Positions 8,127 to 62,349 of a stretch of 64,000 bases of DNA are shown here, one piece after another. A program made the position numbers and the translations under genes. The stretch is from a virus. The stretch is taken from IMG/VR virus record IMGVR_UViG_3300032797_000632, positions 62,001-126,000 of that record. One strand, written 5' to 3'. Every line of letters starts with the position of its first letter. The stretch's first letter is position 1. The notes beneath the pieces are model-generated. The model made no database searches, was not told where the DNA came from, and saw only the letters and a list, made by a program, of their open reading frames with translations.

Positions 8127-8869
8127 GCCTTGTCGAAAGCCTCGAGTTCCGCATTTATACTGCCGACGCTGTGGTGGAGGCCAAGGGTAATATGGAGTTG
8201 GCCACACAGGTGAAGGGATCGCCTGTGGTGCTACTGGTTAATCCCAAGGAGATCCGGTGGGAGAAGCCGAGGATCGTCGAGAAGACCACCACGCAAAAGC
8301 CGGGCCGTTTCATATACGCCGACTGGGGACTGGATGTGCCTAAGCTCGAGATATCTGGACAGACTGGAAACCTTCTGCTGGACGATACGGACAAAAACCA
8401 GAAGGACCAACTGGTTAGGGCGGTCATGCTACAAATAGGTGCGGTGACGGCCCGTATACCAACGGGGCAAACCGAGGGATCGTCCATGGTGTCGGGAGGA
8501 TTGTCGTCGACACTAGAGAAGATGCCCGTGGGCGAGCTGATAGAATATCTACCCTATTCGCAGATACTGGCACTAAGCCCCAAATACAATAAATTCAAGG
8601 ATTTGGAGTCCCTTTATTCGATGCTGGATGCCAACCAGCAGATTATGGTTTTGATCATCGGCCAGGAATACCACCGGGGGATAATAACCAACTTTGGCTT
8701 CACGCAGTCCGTCGACAGCCCGTGGAACTGGAACTATTCGATAACCTTTGAAATCATAGAGCCCCGAATATGGAAGTCGTCCGGCGTATGGGCGGTGAGT
8801 ATCGAGCGCACGGACAAGGGAGTCGTGGAGACGCACCGGGAGCAGTATGTCATCAAGGAGAAATTGTGA
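8123..8869 (+). CDS. Putative tail/baseplate hub-proximal protein
   Basis: The 248-residue protein overlaps the tape measure stop codon by four bases (ATGA). The sequence is beta-rich, with WEKPRIVEKTTTQKPGRF near residue 50 and NYSITFEIIEPRIWKSS near 210. In PBSX-like and other myoviruses the gene between tape measure and hub encodes a LysM/gp53-like baseplate protein; the position matches but no LysM motif is evident. The role is inferred from gene order. Confidence 0.6.
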   Translation: MSLVESLEFRIYTADAVVEAKGNMELATQVKGSPVVLLVNPKEIRWEKPRIVEKTTTQKPGRFIYADWGLDVPKLEISGQTGNLLLDDTDKNQKDQLVRAVMLQIGAVTARIPTGQTEGSSMVSGGLSSTLEKMPVGELIEYLPYSQILALSPKYNKFKDLESLYSMLDANQQIMVLIIGQEYHRGIITNFGFTQSVDSPWNWNYSITFEIIEPRIWKSSGVWAVSIERTDKGVVETHREQYVIKEKL

Positions 8870-18084: not shown

Positions 18085-19311
18085 TTGAACGGGAAGCATA
18101 ATAGTGATATATTGTTAGGGGGGGTTAGGTAATGCATAGATTTCTCTTACATCACCTTTTGAGGCCCCGGGGACTCCAGGCTCCCGAGGGTCAGCAGGGT
18201 GCGGGCGAGGATGTTCTGTGCTCCGACGGTGTCGGCGTCGTTTGCGTGGCCGCAGGCGACGCACAGAAAGTCCTCTCCCCTGCGATTCAGCCTCGACACC
18301 GTGCCACAGACGGGGCATGTGCGGGAGGAGTTGGCCGGATCATTGGCCACAGGACGAACACGGTTCTCCTGGGCTTTGAGTTCGATCCGGTTGATTGCCT
18401 GCCGCACGGTCCACGGTGCGAGTGCCTTTCTAAACGCTTTATTTCGGTTCCGTTGTTTGCCGGTTTTGATTCCCCGAAGGTTTTCGAAGCCGACGGCCCG
18501 GAGTTCGGGCCACGGCAGGAGGTTGACGGTGCGGTTGATGAAGTTCTCCCTCTCCCGGTGGGCCCGGAGCCTGCCCTTGGAGCCGGGCCGGCGTCGGCGG
18601 ACCCGGTCCCTGATGCACTTGAAGTCGGTGCCGTAGTGGTGGCCATCGGAGTCGGAGATCAGCTTATTGACGCCGAGGTCGAGGCCGAGGATCCGGCCCT
18701 CTGTTTTGGGGGTTTGGTCGGGGATGTCGACCCAGAGGATGATGCCGTCTTCGGACAGGGAGCATCCCTGAACGAGTTTTGCCCCCGGGCGGGCCAACCA
18801 TTTATTGAGGACGGCGGTCTTTCGGGTGGGGATGGTGATCCGGTGTCCTTTATGGAGGGTGGAAAGACGGACGATAAGATCAAAGGAACCATGCCCGGCT
18901 TCGGTGGTGATTTCCGGTTTGTTGAGGGTGGCGTTTCCATTAAACATAGGGCAAGAAGCGTTTTTGTCTTTGTTCGCCCGCTTGGTGGCGACCACAATCT
19001 CGAGGGCTTGTTTAAGTGCCCTGCTTTTGTACCTTGCGGAGAGACGAGAGCTCTCGAGGATTTGGTAGGGGGGTATTCCGGGGGATTCCCAGAGTTGGCG
19101 GATGTAAAAATTGACCGCTACCCGGTAAGCTTGGAGGAGGGCGTTGATGGCCCGTCGTTTCCGGGCGGTGGCGAATTTGAGGGATACTTTGCAGGCCCGC
19201 TTCATCGATGGTAATGGTTGAATACAAAAGGCAAACAGTCAAGTAAAATGATTCAAGACCAGAGTCAATTACCCCTCCCTGACGGAAGGAGTTTCCGAGC
19301 CGGAGAATAAG
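18085..19311 (-). mobile_element. Second solitary TnpB insertion (approximate ends)
   Basis: The minus-strand tnpB with its two short AT-rich flanks (18085-18146 and 19206-19300) interrupts an otherwise tightly coupled + strand operon. Exact ends cannot be set by eye. The right flank already contains the ribosome site (GGAG near 19300) of the fibre gene, so the element ends before that. Confidence 0.45.
18147..19205 (-). CDS. tnpB: TnpB-family RNA-guided nuclease (second copy)
   Basis: The 352-residue protein is antisense to all neighbours. It has RuvC motifs GLDLG near 174, GFENLRG near 243 and an Asp in NDADTVGAQN near 325, with a zinc ribbon (CPVCG ... CVACG) around 302-320. It differs strongly from the first TnpB, so the two arrived independently. 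No TnpA is adjacent. It separates the glycosyltransferase block from the large fibre gene. The 3' end and downstream flank (below 18147) would provide the omegaRNA. Confidence 0.85.
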   Translation of the reverse strand: MKRACKVSLKFATARKRRAINALLQAYRVAVNFYIRQLWESPGIPPYQILESSRLSARYKSRALKQALEIVVATKRANKDKNASCPMFNGNATLNKPEITTEAGHGSFDLIVRLSTLHKGHRITIPTRKTAVLNKWLARPGAKLVQGCSLSEDGIILWVDIPDQTPKTEGRILGLDLGVNKLISDSDGHHYGTDFKCIRDRVRRRRPGSKGRLRAHRERENFINRTVNLLPWPELRAVGFENLRGIKTGKQRNRNKAFRKALAPWTVRQAINRIELKAQENRVRPVANDPANSSRTCPVCGTVSRLNRRGEDFLCVACGHANDADTVGAQNILARTLLTLGSLESPGPQKVM

Positions 19312-27948: not shown

Positions 27949-28370
27949 AGATCCGAATCTGCGGAGAGGATGGCATCAGGACCGACCTGATCGGCGAGAT
28001 AAGGCCAGACGGGTGCAAGGTCTACTTTGTCGACCATGATGCTGTCCGCCTCCAGATCGTGGAGTTTTCGCTTGGCGGACACCACTATGTCTACCCGGAG
28101 ATCCCCGAGGACGAGATATGGGTCGAGGACACGGGGGACCGGCAGGACAACTCGGACAATGTGACCCACGAGATCGTGGAGCGCATAATGATGAAATATG
28201 TGGACCGGGAGATGTCTTACGATGAGGCCCATGATGTCGCCAGTAGCATAGAGGAGTTGCTCCGCAAGATTGAGCATTTCGGGGAGCCCTTGGCGGAGAA
28301 AGTGTCTTCGATCAGGGAGATGCTGATGGGAGGGGGACCATGCCAGAAGGAATCCAAAAGCCGGTCCTGA
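27945..28370 (+). CDS. Conserved phage-type protein with an HExxE motif
   Basis: The ATG at 27945 overlaps the previous stop (ATGA) and gives 141 residues. The segment YPEIPEDEIWVEDTGDR near 46 followed by THEIVERIMMKYV near 75 and SYDEAHDVASSIE near 90 resembles a group of small phage and prophage proteins with a HExxE(R) core. A hydrolase role is possible but unproven. Confidence 0.55.
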   Translation: MKIRICGEDGIRTDLIGEIRPDGCKVYFVDHDAVRLQIVEFSLGGHHYVYPEIPEDEIWVEDTGDRQDNSDNVTHEIVERIMMKYVDREMSYDEAHDVASSIEELLRKIEHFGEPLAEKVSSIREMLMGGGPCQKESKSRS

Positions 28371-28759
28371 AAAAAAAGCCGTGGTGGCTCAGGTTGCTGA
28401 CCCCGGATGATTTCGCAGTCACGATATACCCGAACATCTACCTGCCGGCGGGGAAGGCCGGACTCGACGAGGTGGCATACGGGCACGAGTTTGTCCATTG
28501 GGCACAGCAGGAGAAGGCCGGGTCGATTGTGTGGTGGATCGTCAAATACCTGATTATGAGGCCGTTCCGCAGGGAGATGGAGTTGGTCGCATTCAGGACC
28601 ACCATCCGGATCCTGGTGGGCAGAAACCAATGGACCCAGATATACCGCACTTGGCTGATCAGGAAGCTTTCGGGCCTGACCTATTTTTACATGATGTCCT
28701 CCAAGGAGGCATCCAAGTGGGTAGATGAGGCGGTCAAGGAGGCAAGGAGGGGGAGATAG
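28340..28759 (+). CDS. HExxH metallopeptidase-like protein
   Basis: The 139-residue protein has GHEFVHWAQQEKAG near residue 49 and a downstream Glu in RREMELVAF about 30 residues later, the layout of a small gluzincin-type zinc peptidase. A hydrophobic stretch (SIVWWIVKYLIM) sits between. It overlaps the previous gene by 31 bases. The place in the lysis region suggests envelope proteins or murein as substrate, but this is inference. Confidence 0.65.
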   Translation: MPEGIQKPVLKKKPWWLRLLTPDDFAVTIYPNIYLPAGKAGLDEVAYGHEFVHWAQQEKAGSIVWWIVKYLIMRPFRREMELVAFRTTIRILVGRNQWTQIYRTWLIRKLSGLTYFYMMSSKEASKWVDEAVKEARRGR

Positions 28760-28769
28760 GATTGGGAAT

Positions 28770-28961
28770 ATGGCTCCTAAACCTTTAGGCATTGATTTGA
28801 ATGAAATCATCAAATATTACAATGATGGTTTATCATCCATAGAAATAGGGAGGATGTTTAACTGTAGCGATGCCTACATAAGAAACAAATTGAAAAATGC
28901 GGGGACGGCATTGCGAGGCACGATGGAAAAAAGCATAGCATGGAAACACGGAAAATATTGA
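28770..28961 (+). CDS. Small helix-turn-helix protein of an AT-rich insert
   Basis: The 63-residue protein contains a clear helix-turn-helix (YYNDGLSSIEIGRMFNCSDAY, about 15-35, given in part), like the DNA-binding modules that accompany HNH homing endonucleases. It is more A/T-rich than flanking genes and overlaps the HNH gene by 22 bases. The pair looks like a transferred homing unit. Confidence 0.6.
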   Translation: MAPKPLGIDLNEIIKYYNDGLSSIEIGRMFNCSDAYIRNKLKNAGTALRGTMEKSIAWKHGKY

Positions 28962-29302
28962 GTGCGCATTATCAGGGAATTCCCGTCGAGGCATGGGATG
29001 GATTCAAAGATCCGAGAACAGGAAGGGATTATACAAGTAAAGACTATGCGGAATGGCGGGATAGGATTTACAGAATGGATAAGTACATTTGCCAAATGTG
29101 CTTTAAAAGGGGCGGAAAATTGGCTGCCCACCACATCAGATCTTGGTCGAAATATCCAGAATTAAGGTACAACGAAGACAATGGAATTACCCTTTGCGAT
29201 AAATGCCATAGGGCAATAAGGAGGCGGGAAGAAATATTTGAAACCTATTTTATGGAAAGACGGAAAGGAGGGGGCGATGGTGATCTTGTCGGACGGTCAT
29301 GA
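28940..29302 (+). CDS. HNH endonuclease
   Basis: The 120-residue protein has the HNH layout: CQMC near 52, AAHHIRSW near 63, NGITLCDKCHRAI near 82. Such enzymes nick or cut DNA and in phages are often free-standing homing endonucleases. The GC content is clearly lower than that of neighbouring genes. Its stop overlaps the amidase start (ATGA). Together with the HTH gene it sits between lysis genes. Confidence 0.85.
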   Translation: METRKILSAHYQGIPVEAWDGFKDPRTGRDYTSKDYAEWRDRIYRMDKYICQMCFKRGGKLAAHHIRSWSKYPELRYNEDNGITLCDKCHRAIRRREEIFETYFMERRKGGGDGDLVGRS

Positions 29303-41085: not shown

Positions 41086-41955
41086 ATGTCGTTCAAAGAT
41101 GCGGCGGAGAAAATATTGAGGAGGGCGAAAAAGGCCCTGCATTACGAGGAGATCACGAGGCTTGCCATCAAGGGAAGGCTGATCGACAGCTCCGGGAGAA
41201 CCCCGGGAGCGACGATGATCGCCCGCCTGGGGGTCGATGTGAATACCCTCAAGGGGCGGTCAAGGTTCGTCAAGGTGGCGCCCGGGGTTTTCGGGATCAA
41301 CCCCCACCCATCCCCCTTGCCATCCCGTCCGAGGAAGGGATCGGCCATCGGGAAGCCCGGGAGGATAGGGTTTGACGACAAGCCGGTGGACTGGAACGAG
41401 GTGATCGAATATCTGCAAAGGGCTTGCAAAAAGGAGGCGGAGAAAAACGGAAGGGACGATGAATTGCGGGAGGAGCTTTTCTCCGAGCTTCTAGAGGTTG
41501 CGGGCAAGGTGCATAACAACCACCGGGAAATGGCCACGAAGGACCCCCAGCGATTCTGGAGGATTATCAAATCGGCGGTTTATTATCACGGTTTGAGATT
41601 CATAAGGAAGCGTCGCCGAATGCGGTCAATGGAGATCATCCCGAGGGGCGGGGATGCCACGCTCGTGCTCGACTGCAACTTGTTCGCCACCGATGTGCCG
41701 GAGGTGCAGGCCATGCTCGAGGCCCGGGAGGCGCGGGAGGAGGCGAATGCGAGGCTGCGGAAGGTGCCGAGGGTGATCGTCCGCCGGAAAAGCAAGTATC
41801 ATCGGCTGGCCGACGAGGAATGCCTAAAGAACAATAAAAGATTGAAGGCCATCAGGATTCCCGAGGATTCCCCGGTTTTTCATCCGGTAAAGTATCCATC
41901 CGGGATGAGCGCCCTTTGGGGAAGCGTCGCCGATGCGGTTCCGGCTGCACCATAG
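41086..41955 (+). CDS. HARE-HTH protein with a possible divergent sigma-like region
   Basis: The 289-residue protein starts with a HARE-HTH domain: SFKDAAEKILRRAKKALHYE through RTPGATMIARLG and RSRFVKVAPGVFG (about 1-68). This DNA-binding fold also occurs in RNA polymerase delta. The middle part (ELREELFSELLEVAGKV near 125, QRFWRIIKSAVYYHGLRF near 155, then RKRRRMRS) has the spacing of a sigma factor region 2. A late-gene transcription factor is a reasonable guess. A second HARE-HTH gene lies at 53.7 kb. Confidence 0.65.
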   Translation: MSFKDAAEKILRRAKKALHYEEITRLAIKGRLIDSSGRTPGATMIARLGVDVNTLKGRSRFVKVAPGVFGINPHPSPLPSRPRKGSAIGKPGRIGFDDKPVDWNEVIEYLQRACKKEAEKNGRDDELREELFSELLEVAGKVHNNHREMATKDPQRFWRIIKSAVYYHGLRFIRKRRRMRSMEIIPRGGDATLVLDCNLFATDVPEVQAMLEAREAREEANARLRKVPRVIVRRKSKYHRLADEECLKNNKRLKAIRIPEDSPVFHPVKYPSGMSALWGSVADAVPAAP

Positions 41956-43252: not shown

Positions 43253-44503
43253 ATGATCACTATTCTGCATACGGGAGATTGGCATTACCGCGCCAAGTGG
43301 CTGGAGGAGATCCACAAGAACGCCTCGTTTGTGGCCGGGCACGCCGGGGAGGCGGACATCGCCATCCTAGACGGGGACCTCTACGATGGCCCCATGCCCC
43401 ACGACTCTGGGCCGGTGGCCCTGGCGATCGAGGCCGTCCAAGCGATGGCCAACCTAGCCCCGGTGCTGGCCATCAGGGGCACTTATACCCATGACCGGGG
43501 GCAAATGCACCTCCTGGGCAAGATCAGGGCAAACTGGCCGATCCTGGTCGTGGACAAGCCCATTCTGGTCGCCCTTATTGATGGCGACCTGGTTCCGCTC
43601 CCCTTGGGGGCGGAAATACCCCGGGGTGCCTCGCTGGTGGTGGGATGCCTGCCGGAGCCCCCGCGCCTGCTGGAGAGGGAGCACGCAGACGGAATGGTGC
43701 AGGCCATCTGCTCCGGATTCCGGGCTGCGTCGCAGGGGTTTCCGTTCGTGGTGGCCGGCCACCTGGGGGTGACGGGCTCGACCCTCTCGAACCAGAGCCC
43801 GCTCGGGCAGTGGGTGTCCCGGGCGTGCCTCGAGTCGGCGGAGGCCCCGGTCCTGCTGGGGCACATCCACCACCCGCAGAAAATGGCGAATAGCCAGATC
43901 ATTTATTGCGGGTCTCCGTCCATCCTGGATTTCGGGGAGGTCCACGAGCACGGGTTTTATATGCACACGATGGAGCACGGGGGAAATGGAGACGCCCCGG
44001 CCAAATGGTTCTCGTCCACATTTGTGGAAACCCCGCACCGGAGGGTCGTCGAGATCGGGTGGGAAACAAGGCCCAAGGAGAAGCCGGGCATCGGACCGCC
44101 GTACTATGTGAAAGGCGCCAAGGTGCAGAGCTCGTCTCCGAAGGCATGCACGAAGGAGGGGGAGCTGTTTTCCGCGGACCCGTCCGACATCGTCGATCTG
44201 ATCTCCCGGGTCGACTGCCGGGACATGCTGGCCCGGGTCCGGGTCGGGATCGCCAGCCCGGATCCCGACCTTCGCCCGCGGATCGAGCGGGCCTTGCGGG
44301 AGGTCGGTGCCTACGACATCAAGGTGGACATCCTGCGGGACGAGGAGGTCCATGTCCGGTTCGAGGATGTGGCCAAGGCCCGGAGTTTGCGGGACAAGAT
44401 CGTGGCCGTCCGCCCGGAGACGGTTCCGGCGATTTTGGGAAAGGCCGAGCAACTCGAGACGATCCCGGAGGAAAAGCTGATGGAGGAGGTGGCAAATTTA
44501 TAA
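43253..44503 (+). CDS. sbcD: SbcD/Mre11-type nuclease
   Basis: The 416-residue protein carries the calcineurin-like phosphoesterase motifs: HTGDWHYR near 6, DGDLYDG near 39, GHLG near 165 and GHIHHPQ near 203. The GNHD motif appears as RGTYTHD near 76, a form in which the usual Asn is lost. With SbcC it would form a DNA end-processing complex acting in recombination and replication. Its partner gene lies 2.7 kb downstream behind two other genes and the GGTNN array. Confidence 0.88.
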   Translation: MITILHTGDWHYRAKWLEEIHKNASFVAGHAGEADIAILDGDLYDGPMPHDSGPVALAIEAVQAMANLAPVLAIRGTYTHDRGQMHLLGKIRANWPILVVDKPILVALIDGDLVPLPLGAEIPRGASLVVGCLPEPPRLLEREHADGMVQAICSGFRAASQGFPFVVAGHLGVTGSTLSNQSPLGQWVSRACLESAEAPVLLGHIHHPQKMANSQIIYCGSPSILDFGEVHEHGFYMHTMEHGGNGDAPAKWFSSTFVETPHRRVVEIGWETRPKEKPGIGPPYYVKGAKVQSSSPKACTKEGELFSADPSDIVDLISRVDCRDMLARVRVGIASPDPDLRPRIERALREVGAYDIKVDILRDEEVHVRFEDVAKARSLRDKIVAVRPETVPAILGKAEQLETIPEEKLMEEVANL

Positions 44504-44588
44504 AAATATGGTGAGTTCAGGTGAGGTTCGGCGTGTTAGGGTCAAGTGAAGTTTGTTTTGGTCTGGTTTTTTGAATATGCACCATAGG
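44504..44588 (+). promoter_or_regulatory. GGTNN-type leader (spacer A) ending in ATGCACCATAG
   Basis: This gap contains short GGT/GGY runs with about five-base spacing, then GGTCTGGTTTTTTGAAT and the 11-mer ATGCACCATAG (44577-44587). It mirrors the last unit of the large array before sbcC. It ends 28 bases before the next start codon. Confidence 0.5.
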
Positions 44589-44615
44589 TGGAGAGGAAAA
44601 AGAAAGGAGGAGAGA

Positions 44616-45194
44616 ATGGAATATTTGGCAAGATTGAGGTCGAGAGGACCATCGTCATTCTTGTTTGATGGCTGGAGAAAAGAGCTCCACAAAGAGATGA
44701 AAGATTTGAGGGGGGTCCGACTCGTTAAATGGCAGGAAGCCAACTGGCGGAGGTGGGCGATACTGAACGAGAAGGGAAAAGTCATCCTGCCGGCGAATAT
44801 GTTCAAGCTCGCTTTTCATGAGGCATGCAGGCATTTACGGCGGGATCTGTCTTTTGTCAAGGGGAAAAAACAAGCAATTCGTATTATTGACCCCAAATAT
44901 ACCTCGACGATGGATTTCCGCGACTCCACCTTCTCCTGCGATGTAAAACAACTGAAAATGTGGAATATGTGCATGTGCTGTATCTCGATGATAGACGGGG
45001 AAATTCCTGCCGGAAAACTGAGGCCGATACTCGAAAGATGGAAAACAGACATAAAAATATCCGATCCGCTCGGGAAACTGAAGACGCAGGAGATTGCGGA
45101 CATGCTTAATTTCGCCGGAAGATTTGTCGGAGTGGGCAGTGGTCGGTGGCAGGGCATGGGTAGTTTCGAATTAGAGTTTATTAAAAGAATTTAA
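44616..45194 (+). CDS. RAMP-like phage protein, paralog 1
   Basis: The ATG at 44616 follows AAAGGAGGAGA and gives 192 residues. It is alignable with the protein of the next gene: W...ANWRRWA, KGKVILPANMFKLAFHEACR near 48, then RPILERWKTDIKISDPLG near 140 and a Gly-rich end (FAGRFVGVGSGRWQGMGSF). The pattern 'ILP..MF..A...A', 'W...I.I.DP' and a C-terminal G-loop recalls RAMP/Cas7-type RNA-binding folds and a widespread phage family. Function unknown. Confidence 0.55.
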   Translation: MEYLARLRSRGPSSFLFDGWRKELHKEMKDLRGVRLVKWQEANWRRWAILNEKGKVILPANMFKLAFHEACRHLRRDLSFVKGKKQAIRIIDPKYTSTMDFRDSTFSCDVKQLKMWNMCMCCISMIDGEIPAGKLRPILERWKTDIKISDPLGKLKTQEIADMLNFAGRFVGVGSGRWQGMGSFELEFIKRI

Positions 45195-45265
45195 CAGACC
45201 TTCTGTGGTTAGGTAAGGTACGGTATGGTAGTGCCTGATGAGGTGAGGTAAGTTTCGGTTTTGTT
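45195..45265 (+). promoter_or_regulatory. GGTNN-type leader (spacer B)
   Basis: The gap after paralog 1 contains TGGTTAGGTAAGGTACGGT-like runs with five-base spacing and a second run GAGGTGAGGTAAG, then TTTCGGTTTTGTTAAC. It resembles units of the large array but lacks the 11-mer ATGCACCATAG. Confidence 0.45.
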
Positions 45266-45286
45266 AACCAAGAGAGGAGAACGAGC

Positions 45287-45856
45287 ATGAAAAAGTATCT
45301 GGTGAAATTGAAGTCGGTGACCGAGCTGGTGGCGAACACGCCCCAAAAGGAGATATTTGACGAGCTTAAGGCGTTGCCCAAGGACCAGCTCAACGAGTGG
45401 GAGGAGAATGAGAAGAACTGGCGGAGAAAGGCGGAGCGGGATAAAAAGGGCAATGTCATATTGCCCCCGAGGTGGTTCAAGACCTCCTTTACCGACGCCT
45501 GCAAATACACGAGGATGGTTCCCCATTTCGCCACCAGCAAGAAGGAGACATACACGAGGTACTCCGATTCCTTGATCTTCTCGGACACTACCTTCCTCTG
45601 CAGCATGGAAAGCACGAAATACTACGGGGCGTTCGTCGGTGCCCAGGGCAAGAATAGCAAGACCAAGAGGTGGTGCGTGAGGCCGATGGTTGAGAAGTGG
45701 GAGACGGACCTGACCATCATCGATCCCTTCGGCAGAATGAAGATTGAGGAGCTTCAGGAGCTTCTCGAATACTCCGGGATGTTGCTCGGGGTGGGAGACG
45801 CCAGAAAGCTGAATTACGGAAGGTTCAAGGTGGTGTCCATCAAGGAGATCAAATAG
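45287..45856 (+). CDS. RAMP-like phage protein, paralog 2
   Basis: The 189-residue protein begins MKKYLVKLKSVTELVANTPQ and shares with its upstream neighbour KGNVILPPRWFKTSFTDACK near 57, VRPMVEKWETDLTIIDPFG near 130 and the Gly-rich ending YSGMLLGVGDARKLNYGRFK. This set (catalogue-like 'ILPxxxFK', 'RP...W', 'GVGD.R...GRF.V') matches a group of phage proteins with a RAMP-like fold. GAGAGGAGAACG precedes the ATG. Confidence 0.55.
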   Translation: MKKYLVKLKSVTELVANTPQKEIFDELKALPKDQLNEWEENEKNWRRKAERDKKGNVILPPRWFKTSFTDACKYTRMVPHFATSKKETYTRYSDSLIFSDTTFLCSMESTKYYGAFVGAQGKNSKTKRWCVRPMVEKWETDLTIIDPFGRMKIEELQELLEYSGMLLGVGDARKLNYGRFKVVSIKEIK

Positions 45857-45870
45857 GGATTTGCAATTAA

Positions 45871-45915
45871 ATGGCCCGGGGGTGGGGTTTAATCCCATCC
45901 CCATCCCTGGGCCAT
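45871..45915 (+). terminator. Long GC-rich hairpin after paralog 2
   Basis: ATGGCCC (45871-45877) and GGGCCAT (45909-45915) bracket a second pairing of GGGGTGGGG-like with CCCATCCCC-like sequence around a TTTAAT loop. The result is a long, slightly imperfect stem. No T-run follows, so it is more likely a processing or protective structure than a pure intrinsic terminator. Confidence 0.5.
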
Positions 45916-45940
45916 GCTCTAAAAAGAAGGAGGGGGAAAG

Positions 45941-46225
45941 ATGCCAGAGAAGAAAATCGCAACGACGAACAAAGAGGAGATCCAGCAACTTGGATTGAGG
46001 GCGATCGCAGAGTTCTTTCAGATTGACATCTCAAAGCTGTCGAACGAGGACCGCAAGTTCCTGCACGAGAAGGCCAAAATCGGAATGCAGTTCGAGCGGG
46101 AAATGAACCTTACCAAGCGGGCGGTTGAGATGAATTACCTGCGGGTCTTCAAGCTGTATGCGGCGGACAAAAAGGAGCTGAGGTCGTTAATAAAAAAGTC
46201 CTTGTCGCAATACCTGCCGAAGTGA
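45941..46225 (+). CDS. Small helical protein before the repeat array
   Basis: The 94-residue protein is helical and charged (IQQLGLRAIAEFFQIDISKL, then MNLTKRAVEMNYLRVFKLYA). AAGGAGGGGG precedes the ATG. It lies between the hairpin and the GGTNN array, so it is part of the same unit. No family recognised. Confidence 0.6.
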   Translation: MPEKKIATTNKEEIQQLGLRAIAEFFQIDISKLSNEDRKFLHEKAKIGMQFEREMNLTKRAVEMNYLRVFKLYAADKKELRSLIKKSLSQYLPK

Positions 46226-46234
46226 TCGGCGAGG

Positions 46235-47153
46235 TGAAGTAATTGGGTTGGGTACGGCAAGGTTCGGTCAGGTCGGGTTTGGTTCGGCCAGGTCAGGTTT
46301 GGTCCGGCAAGGTTCGGTTTGGTTTTTATTTTAATGGGGGCCTGGCGAATTAGAATTTGATACTTGGGCGAGGTCAGGCGAGGTTGGGTTGGGTAAGGTC
46401 TGATAAGGTAAGGTTGGGTCAGGTAAGTTCTGGTTTGGTTTTTATTTAAACGGGGAGGGAGAACACAGGATTTGAATGTTTTAGGTGAGGTGATGTGTGG
46501 CGAGGCATCGTCAGGTCTGGTCAGGTATGGTAAGGTCTGGTTTTTATTATGATGGGGGAGGGACAAAAAATATAATTGCGGTGTTGAATTTCGGTGAGGT
46601 ACGGTCCCGTCTGGTTCGGTACCGTTCGGTCCGGTATGGCAAGTTTTGGTTAGGTTGGGTAGGGTTTGGTGCGGCAAGGTTTGGTTTTTATTTAAACGGG
46701 AGCAGGGCTGGGAATGAAATTATATTTTCGGTGAGGTGCGGTATGGTTTGGTAGGGTGCGGTCTGGTCCGGCATAGTTTGGTAAGGCATGGTTTGGTTTT
46801 TATTTAAACGGGGGGAGGAAAATAGAATTTTAATATGCGGAAAAATCTGGCCTGGCCGGGTGGGGTACGGCATGGTTCGGTGCGGTTTGGTCGGGTTCGG
46901 CAAGGTTAGGTCGGGTGAGGTCTGGTCTGGTTTTATTTTAAGCGGGGGATAGAGAGGAAAGAAATTGCATTAAATAAGATCCGGTATGGTACGGTCTGGT
47001 CGGATCAGGTTGTCTTTTGGTTAGGTCAGGTTTGGTGTGGTACGGTTTGATTTTTTATTTGAATGGGGATGAAAAAAAGTGTCGTTGCTATGCGGTAAGG
47101 CAGGGCAAGGTCAGGTTTGGTCCGGTGCGGTAAGGTTTGGTTTTTATTTAAAG
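46235..47153 (+). repeat. Array of eight units of degenerate GGTNN pentamers
   Basis: About 920 bases carry no credible gene. They consist of eight units of roughly 90-140 bases. Each has about 10-19 successive pentamers with GG at fixed five-base spacing (GGTNN, less often GGCNN), then a conserved box near GGTTTTTATTTAAACGGGG, then 20-35 A/T-rich bases; the next unit often opens with TTCGGTGAGG. The eighth unit runs directly into ATGCACCATAG and the sbcC leader. In total there are roughly a hundred pentamers. The two variable positions differ freely while GG is kept. Confidence 0.8.
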
Positions 47154-47164
47154 ATGCACCATAG
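47154..47164 (+). promoter_or_regulatory. ATGCACCATAG leader motif before sbcC
   Basis: The same 11 bases occur at 44577-44587 and 56862-56872. Each lies 18-29 bases before the start codon of a gene and upstream of its ribosome site. It could be a -10-type element, a processing site or an operator. Three exact copies, all in leaders, are unlikely by chance. Confidence 0.5.
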
Positions 47165-47185
47165 AGAACGAGGAGGAGAACGAGA

Positions 47186-49825
47186 ATGCTACCACTTGAA
47201 TTGAGGGCAAAGGGATGGAAGGGCCTGCGGAACCTTGTGGGATCCGGGGAGCTGGCGGTAGACCTCCGGGGGCTCGCCGGCATGATCGGCATCCAGGGGG
47301 ACAACGGAATGGGCAAGACCACCTTTCTCGAGCTGATCCAGCCCCACCGGATGATGGTCTCCCGCGGGTCGGAGAGCCTGAAAAGCCAGATATTCATGGA
47401 TGCTCACAAGGACCTGACCTTCCAGATCAAGGATAGGATTTACCGATCCCTCACGCGGATCAAGGAGCGGACAGGCAAAACCGAGGCGTTCATTTGGGAG
47501 GATGGAACCCTGATGAACGAAAACGGGAACTGCGACATCCACGACGAGATCGTTTCCCGGCTCCAGGGGACGCCCGAGATGTTTTTCGCCTCGGTGTTCT
47601 GCGCCCAAAAAGGGAACCGCTCCCGCCGGATCACGGAGCTGACCAAGGGGGAGCGCAAGGGGCTGATCATCCAGTTTATGAACCTGGCCCAGCTCGAGGA
47701 GTGGCAGGCCACGGCCAAGGCCCTGCGGGATGTGATTGCCACCAAGCGCCAGGAGGCGCAGAGGGAGGTCGAAGGCCTTCGTGCGAGGCTCCTGCCCGAT
47801 CCCGGGGCGTTTGAAAAGGAGATGGAGAAGGTCAAATTCCAGATTCAGGACCTCCTGCTGCGGAAGGGGGAGATCGAGAGCTGGCTCGAGGTGGCTCAGG
47901 TGGCGGAGAAGGAGGCACTGGCCCGGGTGCGGGAAGAGGGGGAGAAGGACTCCCGCAAGCGGGCGAAGGGGGAGGAGATCGAGCGGATCGAGTCGAGGGT
48001 CGAAAAGGCCCGGGTGCGGATCAAGGATCTCGGCCTTGAGCAATCCCGGATCCGGGTGCAGGACTTGGCATCCGACCCGGAGGCGATCCGGAAGAAAATA
48101 AAGCAGGCCGAGATGGCGATCCAGGATGCGGAGCGTGCACAAGCCTTCGACGCCGGGGAGCTGAAGAAATACGAGGAAGCCCTCGAGGTGGCGAATGATC
48201 GGGCGAAGAAGGAACTGGAGATCGCCGGGGAGGAAAAGGGCATCCGGGGAAGGATCGACTCCCAAAAGAAGTACCGCACCGAGATTCAGCAGACCTTGGG
48301 GATCGTGGACGGCCAGAAGGGGCTGGCAGAGAAGCTGGCGGACCTAGCCCGGCAATCCGGGGAGGTGGAGGTCGATCTGGACGATGTCGATGGGAGGATC
48401 GTAGACCACGAGGGGTTGGTGAATGGCCTCGAGGAAAAGGCCCGGGAGGAGGCGAGGGTCGATCTGGAGAGGGAGTCCTTGACCGGCAGGGCCAAGGCCC
48501 TGTCCAAGCAGGCGGATATCCTCGGCCAACGGCCGGCGGAATGCCGGATTGACGGGTGCGCCTTTATCAAGGGGGCACTGGATGCCTCGAAGGAAATATC
48601 CGAAATCAAAAAGCAGATCGAAGCCCTCCCGCAGGTGAGGGACCGTGAATCAAGGCAGAGGGATGTCGAAACGGCTAAGGACATCGAGAAGAAAATCCGG
48701 GCGGAGCGGGACAGTCTGAAAAGCCGGCTCGTCGAGCTGGAGGCGGAATCGACCCGGGTGTCGGAGTCGATCAAACTGGCCGAACAGGCCACGGAGAGGA
48801 TCAAGCAGATCGACGGGGATATCGCCCGGCTCGAAGAGGAGCTTCGGAACCTTCCCACCCCGGATTCGCAGCAGACGCAGAAGATGATCAACGAGGCGAA
48901 GGCGGGGGTGCAGCGGGAAAAGGAAAATCTTGATCGGGCCCGGGAACATGTCAAAAAGAACAATGACCGGAGGATCGAGGAGACGGAGCGCCTGCGGGTG
49001 GCGGAGCTGGCGCAGGAGCGGATCCGGTCCATCAGCGACAAAATCGCCTCGGAGGAGTCCGGCCTGTCCGCGGAGGAGGGGCTGCTCAAGGATCGCCGGG
49101 GCGAGTGGGAGGCGATCATCGTCGATCTGTCTTGGGCGAAAAAGCTGCAGGACGCCCAGGCCGACCTGAAAAAATGGCGGGACGGGCTCTCCACAAACCA
49201 GAGGGATGCGGAGGGGAAAAGGGTCTCGCTGGTGTCGATGGAAGGCCAACTCAAAGCTGACCGGGAGGTTCGGGCGGGGATCGAGTCCACGGACTCGAGG
49301 ATCGCCATGCTGGGCCGGGAGGCCGGGGAGTGGGACCTACTCCAGACCCTGTGCGGGCGGGATCACCTGCAGGCTTATGAGATTGACGCCTCGGCGCCGA
49401 TCATCACCGGGCTGGCCAACGACCTGCTCAAGACCACCTTCGGGGACCGTTTCGCCATCCGGTTCCAGACGCTCAAGGACGGCAAGGAGGTGTTTGATGT
49501 GCTGGTCTACGACCAGGAGATCGGGGAGGAGAAGGACATCCGGGACATCTCCGGGGGCGAGGAGGTGTGGATCCTCAAGGCCCTGCGCCTGGCGATGACC
49601 CTTTTGACAAAGGAGAGGAGCGGGAAAACCTACCACACGATTTTCGGGGACGAGGAGGACGGCAAGCTGTCGATCCAGAACCGCATGGCCTACCTGCAGA
49701 TGTACCGGAAAATGCTGGCCATCGGGGGGTTCACCTGCTGCTACCTCGTCAGCCATACCCCGGAGCTGACCGAAGCCTGCGACCACCGCCTGCGGTTCAG
49801 GGCGGGGGGAATTGATGTGGATTGA
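47186..49825 (+). CDS. sbcC: SbcC/Rad50-type ATPase
   Basis: The 879-residue protein has an N-terminal ATPase half with Walker A GDNGMGKTT near 38, long coiled coils (about 170-440 and 470-740) and a hinge with Cys-x4-Cys (AECRIDGCAF near 452) in place of the usual CxxC zinc hook. The C-terminal half has the signature DISGGEEVWILKALRLAM near 786 and a Walker B region (FGDEEDGKLS near 818). It pairs with SbcD in end processing. The GGTNN array is its 5' leader region. GGAGGAGAACGAGA precedes the ATG. Confidence 0.88.
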   Translation: MLPLELRAKGWKGLRNLVGSGELAVDLRGLAGMIGIQGDNGMGKTTFLELIQPHRMMVSRGSESLKSQIFMDAHKDLTFQIKDRIYRSLTRIKERTGKTEAFIWEDGTLMNENGNCDIHDEIVSRLQGTPEMFFASVFCAQKGNRSRRITELTKGERKGLIIQFMNLAQLEEWQATAKALRDVIATKRQEAQREVEGLRARLLPDPGAFEKEMEKVKFQIQDLLLRKGEIESWLEVAQVAEKEALARVREEGEKDSRKRAKGEEIERIESRVEKARVRIKDLGLEQSRIRVQDLASDPEAIRKKIKQAEMAIQDAERAQAFDAGELKKYEEALEVANDRAKKELEIAGEEKGIRGRIDSQKKYRTEIQQTLGIVDGQKGLAEKLADLARQSGEVEVDLDDVDGRIVDHEGLVNGLEEKAREEARVDLERESLTGRAKALSKQADILGQRPAECRIDGCAFIKGALDASKEISEIKKQIEALPQVRDRESRQRDVETAKDIEKKIRAERDSLKSRLVELEAESTRVSESIKLAEQATERIKQIDGDIARLEEELRNLPTPDSQQTQKMINEAKAGVQREKENLDRAREHVKKNNDRRIEETERLRVAELAQERIRSISDKIASEESGLSAEEGLLKDRRGEWEAIIVDLSWAKKLQDAQADLKKWRDGLSTNQRDAEGKRVSLVSMEGQLKADREVRAGIESTDSRIAMLGREAGEWDLLQTLCGRDHLQAYEIDASAPIITGLANDLLKTTFGDRFAIRFQTLKDGKEVFDVLVYDQEIGEEKDIRDISGGEEVWILKALRLAMTLLTKERSGKTYHTIFGDEEDGKLSIQNRMAYLQMYRKMLAIGGFTCCYLVSHTPELTEACDHRLRFRAGGIDVD

Positions 49826-51512: not shown

Positions 51513-52435
51513 CGGAGAAGGAGAAGAGCAAGGAGAAGGGGTCCGAGAAAGCGAAGGAAAAAGCGGGGAGGAAATGCCCGAGCTGTGGCAGGGAGATAAC
51601 CCCGAAGAACAACATCATTCATTTCAAGCGCCCCGGGGGGGAGGACGGCACCCGGTGCGACCATTGCTTTGTGGAGGAGTCCACGAGGCCGGCGAATGGC
51701 AAGGGGGCCAAGATGCCGAAAGAGACCCGGCAGATATGGGAGAGGGCGAAGGAGGGGCTGATCAAGCTCTGTCGGGACATTAACCGGAACTACTTCGAGA
51801 TCGGGAAAAACCTGTTCGAGATAAACCGGGACAAGCTGTGGGCGGCGGAGTACGCCAGCCTCGAGGAGTTTGTGGAGAAGGTCCTCGAGTTCAGGAAGAG
51901 CAAGGCGTACCAGCTGATCCAGATATACGAGGTGTTCGGAAAGGACTTCGGCTACACGGCCGAGACCCTGCAGGAGAAGAACTGGACCAAGCTCCGGGGC
52001 CTCCTCCGGCTCCACAAGGACGGGCTCCTGACCAAGAAGAACGTCAAGGAGTGGATGGACAAGATCGGGGACCTGAGGGGGGATGACTTCGACCGGACCA
52101 TCGCCCTCGCCCTCGGCAAGACGGATCCGAAGGAGGTGGCGCAGACCCGGCTGATCTTCGTGGCCGAGAACCCCGAGCAGGCATCGGTGATAACCGGAGC
52201 CGTCGACCACATGATGAGGGTCATCGGGGGGGGGGTCGGAAGGACCGCCGCCCTCGAGTGCATATGCGCCGACTACATGGCGGGGGCCGATCCCGAGAAT
52301 CCGCAGGCACCCGAGCGCATCCTAGCGATGGCGCAGAAAATCCTCGAGAGCATGAAGCCGGAGGAGGGGGTGGCCGGTGCGACGGACGATTCCAAGAAGG
52401 CGGAAAAAGGGGCGGGAGCGGGAAAACCGTTTTAA
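51509..52435 (+). CDS. Zinc-ribbon protein with a DUF3102-like helical domain
   Basis: The 308-residue protein has a Lys/Glu-rich start, a zinc ribbon (CPSCGREITPKN near 23, CDHC near 50) and a helical domain (YFEIGKNLFEINRDKLW, SLEEFVEKVLEFRKSKAYQL) similar to DUF3102/ParB-type helix-turn-helix regions. It is a likely DNA-binding factor linked to replication by the upstream loader gene. The end is low-complexity. Confidence 0.6.
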   Translation: MTEKEKSKEKGSEKAKEKAGRKCPSCGREITPKNNIIHFKRPGGEDGTRCDHCFVEESTRPANGKGAKMPKETRQIWERAKEGLIKLCRDINRNYFEIGKNLFEINRDKLWAAEYASLEEFVEKVLEFRKSKAYQLIQIYEVFGKDFGYTAETLQEKNWTKLRGLLRLHKDGLLTKKNVKEWMDKIGDLRGDDFDRTIALALGKTDPKEVAQTRLIFVAENPEQASVITGAVDHMMRVIGGGVGRTAALECICADYMAGADPENPQAPERILAMAQKILESMKPEEGVAGATDDSKKAEKGAGAGKPF

Positions 52436-52793
52436 TTCTTGGCGGGATCCCGCCGGGAAAAAACCTGAGCCCCCGAAAAAAGAATCATACATCGGGTTTC
52501 TGAGGAAGCTGTTTGACCGCGACGGTTGGGTGTGCAGGAACCCGTTCTGCGGGTCCAAGAGAAACCAGACCTGCCACCACATCAAAAAGCGGAGCCTCGG
52601 CGGAAAGACCGAGATGTCCAACTGCGTGACCATCTGCTTCGATTGTCACCGGGCCAACGAGGACGGGAAGCTCAAGATCGAGCAGTCCGGTGTCGACCCG
52701 ATGATCGTCTCGTTCGAAGACCGCCGGTATGGAATGTCCAAGAGCATCGAGATCCGCAACGAGGCACCATATAAACAGGGAGGAAAAATATAA
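52377..52793 (+). CDS. HNH endonuclease
   Basis: The 138-residue frame has CRNPFCG near 54, TCHHIKKRSLGGKTEMSNCV near 66 and TICFDCHRANEDGK near 86, an HNH core with a four-cysteine zinc site. The GTG at 52377 is the only good start in frame and overlaps the previous gene by 59 bases; the first 30 residues are Arg-rich and may be untranslated. It may be a homing or packaging-type nuclease. Confidence 0.78.
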   Translation: MRRTIPRRRKKGRERENRFNSWRDPAGKKPEPPKKESYIGFLRKLFDRDGWVCRNPFCGSKRNQTCHHIKKRSLGGKTEMSNCVTICFDCHRANEDGKLKIEQSGVDPMIVSFEDRRYGMSKSIEIRNEAPYKQGGKI

Positions 52794-52806: not shown

Positions 52807-53784
52807 ATGATGTGGGATGAGATAGTGGAAGAAACCATAAACAATGCGGGGCCATCTGATGGATGGATGGTCGAGGAATTCAAGGGATTGTCATCGCAAG
52901 TTCAATGCTTTGAGATAACCAATATTTTCGAATGGGTGGTGGATTACGAGGAGAATCATGACGAAAAGCCGGATGTCGGACATTGCAAGCCCCCCTGCCC
53001 ATCGTGGTTTATGGATTTCAAGGCGGTAGATAAATCGAGGGTAGGAATTTGGGTTAGCACATTTCCAATGGTGAAAAGAATGAAAAGCATGATAGAGGGC
53101 TCCGTAACCAAGGCGATTCCAGATCCGGATGAATTCATGACTTCGATGTTCGAGGAAACAAGAAAGGCGGGGGAGGAAAAGACATTCAAGCAAATATTGG
53201 ACGATGAGGATTATTTCTACAAGATGGATTTGTATTTAAAAGGCGACACTAGGTCCATATTTAGGCAGGGATTTTTTATATTTTCGGATAGATGCATAAA
53301 AAAGATGTCGGTACTTTCCCCTATGGGCGAGGAAAATGTCGAAGGTGCAAAGCAAGTGGCGGCGCTGGCCATGAATATGCTTCTTTACTTTCTTTTGTTT
53401 GTAAATGCCAAAAACATCACTATTCAGACATTCAGGCGTCCCGATGATAAAATAAATAAAAAGAGGGGAAAAAACGGGAAACCCCCTCTCGCCATTTACA
53501 AGGTCCTCACCATCGACCCGAGCAAAGTCTCGAGGGAGTTCCTCCCGCGAATGACGGGCAGGGGCATGGAGGGGCTGCGATATCATTTCTGCAGGGGCCA
53601 TATCAAAAGCTACACAGAGGATTCTCCGCTGTTCGGAAAATTCTCCGGCACATGGTTCTGGTCCCCGACGATGCGGGGGAAGAAAAGTGCCGGGGAGGTT
53701 CATAAAACCTACAGAGTCGAGATCGACGGGAAAGGAGGAGGAGATGGCAGAGAGAAAGAAGGCAGGGATAGCTCCGACGGCTAG
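52807..53784 (+). CDS. Possible AcrVA2-like protein
   Basis: The 325-residue protein is A/T-rich in its first two thirds. The C-terminal part includes NAKNITIQTFRRPDDKINKK near 200, GRGMEGLRYHFCRGHIKSY near 255 and DSPLFGKFSGTWFWSPTMRG near 275. A closing RGH...LFGK.SG..W...RG pattern is shared by phage proteins related to the anti-CRISPR AcrVA2, and the length is close to that of AcrVA2 (about 320). The match is from memory and needs a profile search. Confidence 0.4.
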   Translation: MMWDEIVEETINNAGPSDGWMVEEFKGLSSQVQCFEITNIFEWVVDYEENHDEKPDVGHCKPPCPSWFMDFKAVDKSRVGIWVSTFPMVKRMKSMIEGSVTKAIPDPDEFMTSMFEETRKAGEEKTFKQILDDEDYFYKMDLYLKGDTRSIFRQGFFIFSDRCIKKMSVLSPMGEENVEGAKQVAALAMNMLLYFLLFVNAKNITIQTFRRPDDKINKKRGKNGKPPLAIYKVLTIDPSKVSREFLPRMTGRGMEGLRYHFCRGHIKSYTEDSPLFGKFSGTWFWSPTMRGKKSAGEVHKTYRVEIDGKGGGDGREKEGRDSSDG

Positions 53785-54478
53785 GGTAGAAGAACCCTTG
53801 AGGGCACTTACCAATCCGGACGGAACCATGTCGTTCAAGGATGCGGCGGAGAGGGTGCTGAAAAAGGCTAGGCGTCCTCTCCATTACAAGCAGATTGTTG
53901 CAAATGCGATCAGGGACAGGTTGATATCGCTGGAGGGGAAAACCCCCGAGGCGACGATGCTCGCACGCCTGGGGGGAGACATAAGCTCCCTCAAGGAGAG
54001 GTCGCGGTTCGTCAAGCTCGAGCCCGGGGTCTACGGACTGGCCTCTTGGAAAATTCAATCCGTCCCCAAGGCGGAGCCGACTCCGGCGAATAAAATGGTG
54101 ACAAAGCCTGCTCCGGCCCGGGAGCCGAAGCCTGCCCCGGCATCGCCTCCGGCCCCGCAGAAAACCCCCGAGCGAAAGCCAGCGGGAGAGTCCCTGTCCC
54201 TCGAGTTCGCCTTCGGGGCGGAAAAGGACCTGAAAGATGTGACCGAGGCGCTGGCCCTCGCCGGAGCCATCTACCCGGACTTCGACTCGCAGGAGTCGCA
54301 GCTCTCCCTGATCTGCACCCACTTTTTAGCGAACCACCCGACGGACGACGGAAACCTCAACCCGATGAAAAGACTTTTTAGGGCATGGGAGCAGGGGTAC
54401 GATGTCCAGATTCTGATGATCCACAACGGCGATGTGGAGTTCGGGGCGGACCTGCTCAAGGAAATCCGCGGGGCTTAA
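53744..54478 (+). CDS. HARE-HTH protein (second copy)
   Basis: The ATG at 53744 (AAAGGAGGAGG upstream) gives 244 residues and overlaps the previous gene by 41 bases. Residues about 25-95 form a HARE-HTH domain almost colinear with that of the 41.1 kb gene (SFKDAAERVLKKARRPLHYK, KTPEATMLARLGGDISSLKE, RFVKLEPGVYGL). A Pro/Ala linker follows and then a different C-terminal domain (LSLEFAFGAEKDLKDVTEAL, LICTHFLANHP). It is probably a transcription factor. Confidence 0.7.
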   Translation: MAERKKAGIAPTARVEEPLRALTNPDGTMSFKDAAERVLKKARRPLHYKQIVANAIRDRLISLEGKTPEATMLARLGGDISSLKERSRFVKLEPGVYGLASWKIQSVPKAEPTPANKMVTKPAPAREPKPAPASPPAPQKTPERKPAGESLSLEFAFGAEKDLKDVTEALALAGAIYPDFDSQESQLSLICTHFLANHPTDDGNLNPMKRLFRAWEQGYDVQILMIHNGDVEFGADLLKEIRGA

Positions 54479-56821: not shown

Positions 56822-56842
56822 GGGCCGGCGGACAGGACCATG

Positions 56843-56872
56843 TTTTCCACAATCGTGGAAAATGCACCATAG
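56843..56872 (+). promoter_or_regulatory. Eight-base-arm palindrome fused to ATGCACCATAG
   Basis: TTTTCCAC-AATC-GTGGAAAA (56843-56862) is the longest-arm intergenic copy of the palindrome. It runs straight into ATGCACCATAG (56862-56872), the motif also found before the genes at 44616 and 47186. The next gene starts at 56891. Both elements together look like an operator/promoter unit. Confidence 0.6.
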
Positions 56873-61788: not shown

Positions 61789-62349
61789 ATGCCATTCCAG
61801 AAGAAAAGACCCGCAGAGATTTGCCACGAATGTGGAAAGCCGATCCAGGGGGAGCCGGTATACCTGCCCGTCCATCGCACGGGTGACCCCTTTGAGCCCT
61901 TCTGTAAGGAGTGTGAGGGGAACGCCCGCGGGGTGATGGACGATGATGGCCCTGGGGGACGGAGGAGGTTGTTGGAGGAGATCCGCCCGGAGTGGGAGCA
62001 CTTGTCCTCCCGGAGAATGAGGGCGAAGCGGATCGTCTTTGGGGACGAGGGGGAGGAGCCCCGTGGGGTAGCCGGCAAGGCCCGGGAGGTTCGGGAGGCG
62101 TTGACAAAAAGGTCAACAGGAAAAAGCGGGGCGGAGATCCCGGCCAACCTCGAGTACGCCTTCTGCGACGACTGGTTCATCTACGCACAGGACCCGGACA
62201 GCGACGACCTGTACTTTGTGAGCACCGAGCTTTGGCCGGAGTGGGCGGACTATACCGAGGCGCAGATGGACGAGGAAAAGGCCGTCGAGAAGTACATGCT
62301 TCCGGTGGCCAAGAAGAAATGGGAAACGCTTCCCTGGGAGAAGGCCTGA
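61789..62349 (+). CDS. Zinc-ribbon protein ending in LPWEKA
   Basis: The start at 61789 suits the GCGGAGG site better than the in-frame ATG at 61783. The 186-residue protein has CHECGKPI near 12 and CKEC near 38, a zinc ribbon. The end reads VAKKKWETLPWEKA, almost the same as a 16-residue frame at 62653. A minimal copy of the CCAC-N4-GTGG palindrome overlaps the zinc-ribbon codons. Confidence 0.62.
   Translation: MPFQKKRPAEICHECGKPIQGEPVYLPVHRTGDPFEPFCKECEGNARGVMDDDGPGGRRRLLEEIRPEWEHLSSRRMRAKRIVFGDEGEEPRGVAGKAREVREALTKRSTGKSGAEIPANLEYAFCDDWFIYAQDPDSDDLYFVSTELWPEWADYTEAQMDEEKAVEKYMLPVAKKKWETLPWEKA

Follow-up and report, generated by a model that had tools for sequence, protein, structure and literature searches.

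The locus described here lies in a window of 64,000 nucleotides of a phage genome (IMG/VR record IMGVR_UViG_3300032797_000632, positions 62,001 to 126,000 of the 126,141-base record), between genes for SbcD-like and SbcC-like subunits. It contains two genes encoding homologs of Vipr, a ~20-kDa RAMP-fold protein that binds vrRNA in VIPR systems, which are mostly viral and proviral (PMC13142463). A small ORF, eight tandem units of GG-periodic pentamers and two further pentamer arrays complete the locus (Table 1).

Table 1. Features of the locus between sbcD and sbcC, with positions in the window.
Feature	Position	Strand	Description
SbcD-like subunit	43253..44503	+	phrog_100; upstream neighbour
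Leader array A1	44510..44569	+	12 pentamers (7 perfect GGY), end GGTCTGGTTTTTT, then GCACCATAG and vipr1 RBS
vipr1	44616..45194	+	192-aa Vipr paralog; RPI..W and GVGS.R..GSF motifs; HMM match
Leader array A2	45207..45266	+	12 pentamers (8 perfect GGY), directly 5' of vipr2
vipr2	45287..45856	+	189-aa Vipr paralog; RPM..W and GVGD.R..GRF G-loop; HMM match
ORF3	45941..46225	+	94 aa; not detectable as vap1
Putative vrRNA unit U1	46246..46340	+	16 pentamers + tail; guide TG AC AA TC CA CG TT TC CA CA TT CC AA TC
Putative vrRNA unit U2	46367..46455	+	15 pentamers + tail GGTTTTTATTTAAACGGGG
Putative vrRNA unit U3	46484..46558	+	12 pentamers + tail
Putative vrRNA unit U4	46593..46700	+	19 pentamers + tail; longest unit
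Putative vrRNA unit U5	46730..46814	+	14 pentamers + tail
Putative vrRNA unit U6	46849..46948	+	17/17 perfect GGY pentamers + tail; guide CT CG GG AC AT TC GC TT CG TC AA TA CG GA CT
Putative vrRNA unit U7	46978..47068	+	7 + 7 pentamers, one-base phase break mid-unit, + tail
Putative vrRNA unit U8	47094..47152	+	10 pentamers + GGTTTTTATTTAAA, then GCACCATAG and sbcC leader
SbcC-like subunit	47186..49825	+	phrog_77, E 4e-28; downstream neighbour

The region 46235–47153 contained 100 pairs of GG at a lag of five bases, compared with 28.1 ± 4.9 (maximum, 41) in 1000 dinucleotide-preserving shuffles, and windows of the same size elsewhere had a mean of 10.7 and a maximum of 19. The strict five-base spacing over about 920 bases and the number of eight units, both put forward in the original prediction from this sequence, were thus confirmed. 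The pentamers of the units fall within 46246–47143 in the frame G-G-Y-N-N, on the + strand only, with none on the − strand. The pentamer had been described as GGTNN, of which the constant GG stood, whereas the third position proved to be a pyrimidine (T in 102 and C in 19 of 121 pentamers). Over these pentamers, the information content was 1.55, 1.51 and 1.37 bits at G, G and Y, and 0.02 and 0.08 bits at the two N positions. Neutral decay of a simple repeat would affect all five positions alike, yet here three are informative and two nearly random, so that the earlier argument for selection rather than a microsatellite, based on constant GG beside free variation, also held.

Each unit is 10–19 pentamers long, counting two tail pentamers, and the GGY arrays of U1, U6 and U8 are perfect. 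U7, whose phase break falls within 46978–47053, is possibly defective. The NN letters are essentially unrelated between units, with one tested pair just below p = 0.05, a chance-level number; the units are therefore not recent duplicates. A log-odds scan of the whole record on both strands found no arrays other than the eight units and A1 and A2, two arrays just upstream that were absent from the original prediction. An Rfam search of the window returned tRNA only, and the array matched no curated RNA family.

A tail resembling GGTYTGGTTTTTATTTAAAYGGGG closes six to seven of the eight units and is weaker in U3 and U7. The closing box that had been predicted for most units is indeed present there, as GGTTTTTATTT[A/T]A[A/G][C/T]GGG(G), but it is variable, being degenerate in U3 and replaced in U8 by TTTAAAGATGCACCATAG, which continues into the sbcC leader. 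RNAalifold analysis of the tails gave no consensus structure. A candidate stem of 3–4 bp, GUU(U)/(A)AAY, had 92% of cells paired and one compensatory change, which was no better than shuffled letters. A search of 44400–47200 for sigma-70-type promoters found none. A1, A2 and U8 enter gene leaders directly, and in A1 and U8 the array is followed by GCACCATAG and then an RBS. A1 is a candidate degenerate vrRNA or leader-borne guide, and the three arrays may all be transcribed together with the genes as guides, or they may be remnants or regulatory sites carried in the leaders.

In the 126-kb record, the element GCACCATAG has 11 copies on the + strand and none on the − strand (0.5 expected). The copies lie at 41947, 44579, 47156 and 56864 in the window and at seven further sites in L007–L009 (L numbers denote sequence records collected in this analysis). 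Most copies are located at gene junctions, shortly 5' of an RBS, and the element is possibly a phage promoter or an mRNA processing signal. A palindromic TCCAC-N-GTGGA adjoins three copies, at window positions 56840–56864 and beside the copies at window-relative positions −60957 and −45025 (L007).

The two Vipr proteins share 33% identity, and both match phrog_4652 and align with the Vipr of Escherichia phage SUSP1, including the RP(I/M)..W and GVGD.R..GRF motifs. Vipr1 is the more diverged paralog, in which the D of GVGD is no longer present. Both genes have an intact reading frame, and both proteins retain the W and the G shared by all 70 rows of the Vipr alignment. AlphaFold2 models had pLDDT values of 77 for Vipr1 and 86 for Vipr2, and all PDB matches listed by Foldseek for both models were CRISPR RAMP complexes (Csm3, type VII Cas7 and Cmr), with type VII Cas7/Csm3 matched by Vipr1 and the best E value of 6.7e-6 obtained with Vipr2. 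ORF3 was considered as vap1 and rejected (hhalign probability, 1%), and no vap1 was detected in the window locus in a comparison that covered vap1 among vap1–6.

Other regions of the phage genome also carry genes of note. A phage-encoded FtsZ/tubulin-family protein was found at L009:4914–5846 (PF00091; E value, 4.6e-30), and an IS605 OrfB/TnpB-like protein with a Cas12f1-like TNB domain, an insertion in the phage genome, at 928–2067 on the − strand of the window. Two HARE-HTH domain proteins (window 41086–41955 and 53744–54478) are paralogous over their first 73 residues. Two similar long ORFs, at window 18132–19214 and genome position 51633–52721 (L009), start with M(H/N)RF.L....RGLQAPEG and may lie antisense to a real gene that has been duplicated.

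In the published description of VIPR, vrRNAs consist of GGY alternating with NN over 9–16 repeats followed by an invariant 3' tail, and double-stranded DNA is recognized with a one-base skip, by which competing mobile elements are repressed (PMC13142463, preprint April 2026). The window units likewise consist of tandem GGY/hypervariable-NN pentamers; counted with their two tail pentamers, U4 (19) and U6 (17) are slightly above the published range. The repeats are followed by a 3' tail in most units (six to seven of eight), and a RAMP-fold Vipr with a G-loop lies beside the arrays in two copies. A vap accessory gene is typical of VIPR but not obligatory (PMC13142463), and vap1 was not detected here.

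The experimentally studied VIPR system of SUSP1 belongs to type II (PMC13142463). In the SUSP1 record, vipr is located at 28474–29061 and vap1 at 28031–28471, as inferred from the layout in PMC13142463, and GGTNN arrays at 29226–29167 and 27966–27616 lie on either side of the two genes. Both loci are phage-borne, and in each of them GGY/NN arrays flank a Vipr gene and share its strand; their Viprs are of RAMP type with a common C-terminal G-loop motif and fall in one supported tree group. The window differs from SUSP1 in its pair of divergent Viprs, where SUSP1 has one, in the lack of a detectable vap1 and in having eight downstream units rather than three. Its tail GGTTTTTATTTAAACGGGG is also different, with neither a hairpin nor the SUSP1-type pseudoknot demonstrable in the window tails. 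L077 (IMG/VR 3300036859_000658) resembles the window in that a Vipr of the nearest group is followed directly by nine vrRNA units in tandem, separated by short A/T-rich stretches, but it has one Vipr, vap1 is present and most units end in GGCAAGGA(A/T)T.

The predicted fold of both window Viprs is common to the RAMPs of class 1 CRISPR (Csm3/Cas7 and type VII Cas7). Unlike in class 1 CRISPR, the repeats at the locus are degenerate pentamers and form no array of near-identical repeats and spacers, none of the ten locus proteins scanned matched a Cas family, and the putative guide code is noncontiguous. The sites of TRAP (trp RNA-binding attenuation protein), which are (G/U)AGNN repeats, resemble the window units in their constant trinucleotide, free dinucleotide and 5-nt spacing. 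They differ in that the window has GGY rather than NAG and its neighboring protein is a RAMP rather than a TRAP homolog.

A scan of IMG/VR for eight consecutive GGYNN pentamers gave at least 120 viral contigs, most of which had several arrays with high NN entropy on one strand. When a Vipr HMM seeded with the two window proteins and those of SUSP1 and phage ekra was applied, 87 of the 120 loci listed, which had been selected solely by the DNA pattern, proved to encode a Vipr relative; the HMM total was 91 ORFs, including the window's two, SUSP1 and ekra. Among the matches listed, 390 arrays were located no more than 4 kb from a Vipr (90 loci); 382 of them were on the vipr strand, and 326 of these 390 arrays were downstream and 64 upstream of vipr. 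The same pattern scan also fetched true pentanucleotide microsatellites, namely, uniform GGCCG, GGCGG, GGTTA/GGCTA and GGCTT arrays in L047, L063, L065 and L068. A pattern match in L006 (GGTTTTTATTTAAACGGG), outside any array and apparently coding, was rejected as a chance match. In L109, vrRNA units at 6733–6943 and 8263–8421 are only 2 bases apart, like the staggered arrays of the preprint (PMC13142463).

Two separate Vipr ORFs occurred only in the window among the 90 Vipr loci listed, 45 of which have at least 1.5 kb of sequence on both sides; L099 had a weak second Vipr domain match inside one ORF. In the phylogenetic tree, the window paralogs are sisters (100/98) on long branches, and the duplication is therefore old. 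They belong to a supported group with L109, L018, L028 and L077 within a larger group that holds SUSP1, although long-branch placement is uncertain. Among the matches listed, a vap1 homolog was present in 19 other loci of the larger SUSP1 group, the majority there, and, outside it, in L052 only, a locus left out of the tree because of its short Vipr fragment. Tree position and vap1 linkage were the only grounds on which a VIPR type was assigned to the window locus. No relatives were found in viral contigs when sought via SbcC and via Vipr2.

The array is best explained as a set of eight genes for vrRNAs, belonging to a VIPR system that the phage encodes, and to this reading we assign a probability of about 0.94. 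An array of small RNAs had been among the options of the original prediction, and vrRNA units fit it; its statement that no known element class fits well did not hold, since VIPR vrRNAs do (PMC13142463). The observed basis is the code-like composition of GGY/NN, the constant tail and the co-occurrence of arrays with Vipr across many phages, to which are added the two adjoining Vipr homologs with their predicted RAMP fold. The evidence for a VIPR locus is strong, comprising the Vipr homology, the RAMP-type models, the invariant W and G and the strand linkage of the arrays. Judging from its sequence, the locus is a VIPR variant with two diverged Vipr paralogs and without detectable vap1.

Experimental work on VIPR covers SUSP1 and P. 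fulva (PMC13142463), and by analogy with it transcription, RNP assembly, the skip rule and repression would operate here as follows. Each unit would give rise to an RNA of roughly 60–110 nt, comprising a GGY-NN guide tract and then the constant tail GGTYTGGTTTTTATTTAAAYGGGG, as discrete + strand vrRNA transcripts ending after ...AAACGGGG. Vipr subunits of the two paralogs would assemble along the vrRNA with GGY gripped and NN exposed. The NN pairs, for which the original prediction had no explanation, would thus be a guide code and not neutral slack, reading double-stranded DNA as NNxNNxNN with one target base skipped per step. Binding to a gene of a competing phage, satellite or prophage would silence its transcription.

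Guides of all units were compared with the phage's own genome, where no match at skip 1 was better than those of shuffled guides, as is expected of a system that spares self. Exact seeds of 8–9 NNs from U1, U4, U5 and U6 in viral contigs, and from U6 in genome contigs, gave only matches whose flanking NNs agreed at about chance level. Since exact seed matches were required and four of the eight guides were covered, this negative result for targets is weak. The best candidate, L203 (U5, 10 consecutive NNs), was outside any long ORF and not significant after counting trials. Across the 1.8 Mb of collected loci, skip 1 was not convincingly separated from skips 0 and 2.

Several observations stand against the VIPR reading: no target was found for the guides scanned, no sigma-70-type promoter, SUSP1-type tail pseudoknot or vap1 was detected, the pentamer phase is broken within U7, and both A1 and A2 are degenerate. 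The missing vap1, the broken phase and the degenerate leader arrays, together with the long branches of both Viprs, would also suit a locus that is VIPR by identity but inactive, its vrRNAs and Viprs decaying after the loss of vap1. We consider such a remnant unlikely: both Vipr frames are intact with their invariant W and G, U1, U6 and U8 are perfect, six to seven units share the conserved tail, and vap1 enhances the SUSP1 system but is not required (PMC13142463). A cis-acting RNA or DNA element, by which Vipr or a TRAP-like ring or filament protein regulates vipr1, vipr2 and sbcC via their leaders, would account for the location of A1, A2 and U8 a few tens of bases 5' of an RBS and for the degeneracy of A1 and A2 as guides. 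This is very improbable, as no gene follows directly on seven of the eight units, hypervariable NNs of full entropy would be superfluous in a pure binding site, and most arrays elsewhere are downstream of vipr. A decayed microsatellite or two-tetrad G-quadruplex DNA with no guide function has a negligible probability: GG every five bases could in principle form two tetrads and simple pentamer slippage does exist in L047, L063 and L065, but in the microsatellite records the NN entropy is low, at 0 to 1.3 bits, and the HMM matched no Vipr gene, a quadruplex would need neither the pyrimidine after GG nor adjoining Vipr genes, and both are contradicted by the strand bias of the arrays and their linkage to Vipr. 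Once the Vipr genes were identified, TRAP-like binding, rut sites, a G-quadruplex and an origin were set aside, and the replication origin, Shine-Dalgarno decoys and multi-site protein target of the original prediction gained no support.

With the VIPR reading, the simplest view of the locus is that the second Vipr occupies the accessory slot. Tentatively, and at somewhat less than even odds, the two Viprs may form one hetero-oligomeric effector (e.g., backbone and cap, or subunits that alternate) or handle two sets of vrRNAs.

VIPR, a class of RNA-guided DNA recognition whose code is noncontiguous, was described only months ago. Most of the contigs listed for a mere DNA pattern turn out to encode Vipr, and this finding provides independent support for the class from raw sequence. 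The eight decoded guides are ready-made predictions. The arrangement of two Viprs without vap1 is new relative to the main text of PMC13142463. VIPR is a possible forerunner of CRISPR. If the two Viprs do form one effector or handle two vrRNA sets, the locus would represent a naturally occurring intermediate, its single ancestral RAMP having been duplicated and specialized, with a second RAMP in place of vap1. This would be the step proposed to lead from VIPR to multi-RAMP class 1 CRISPR, and the two-Vipr locus makes RAMP duplication before CRISPR directly testable.
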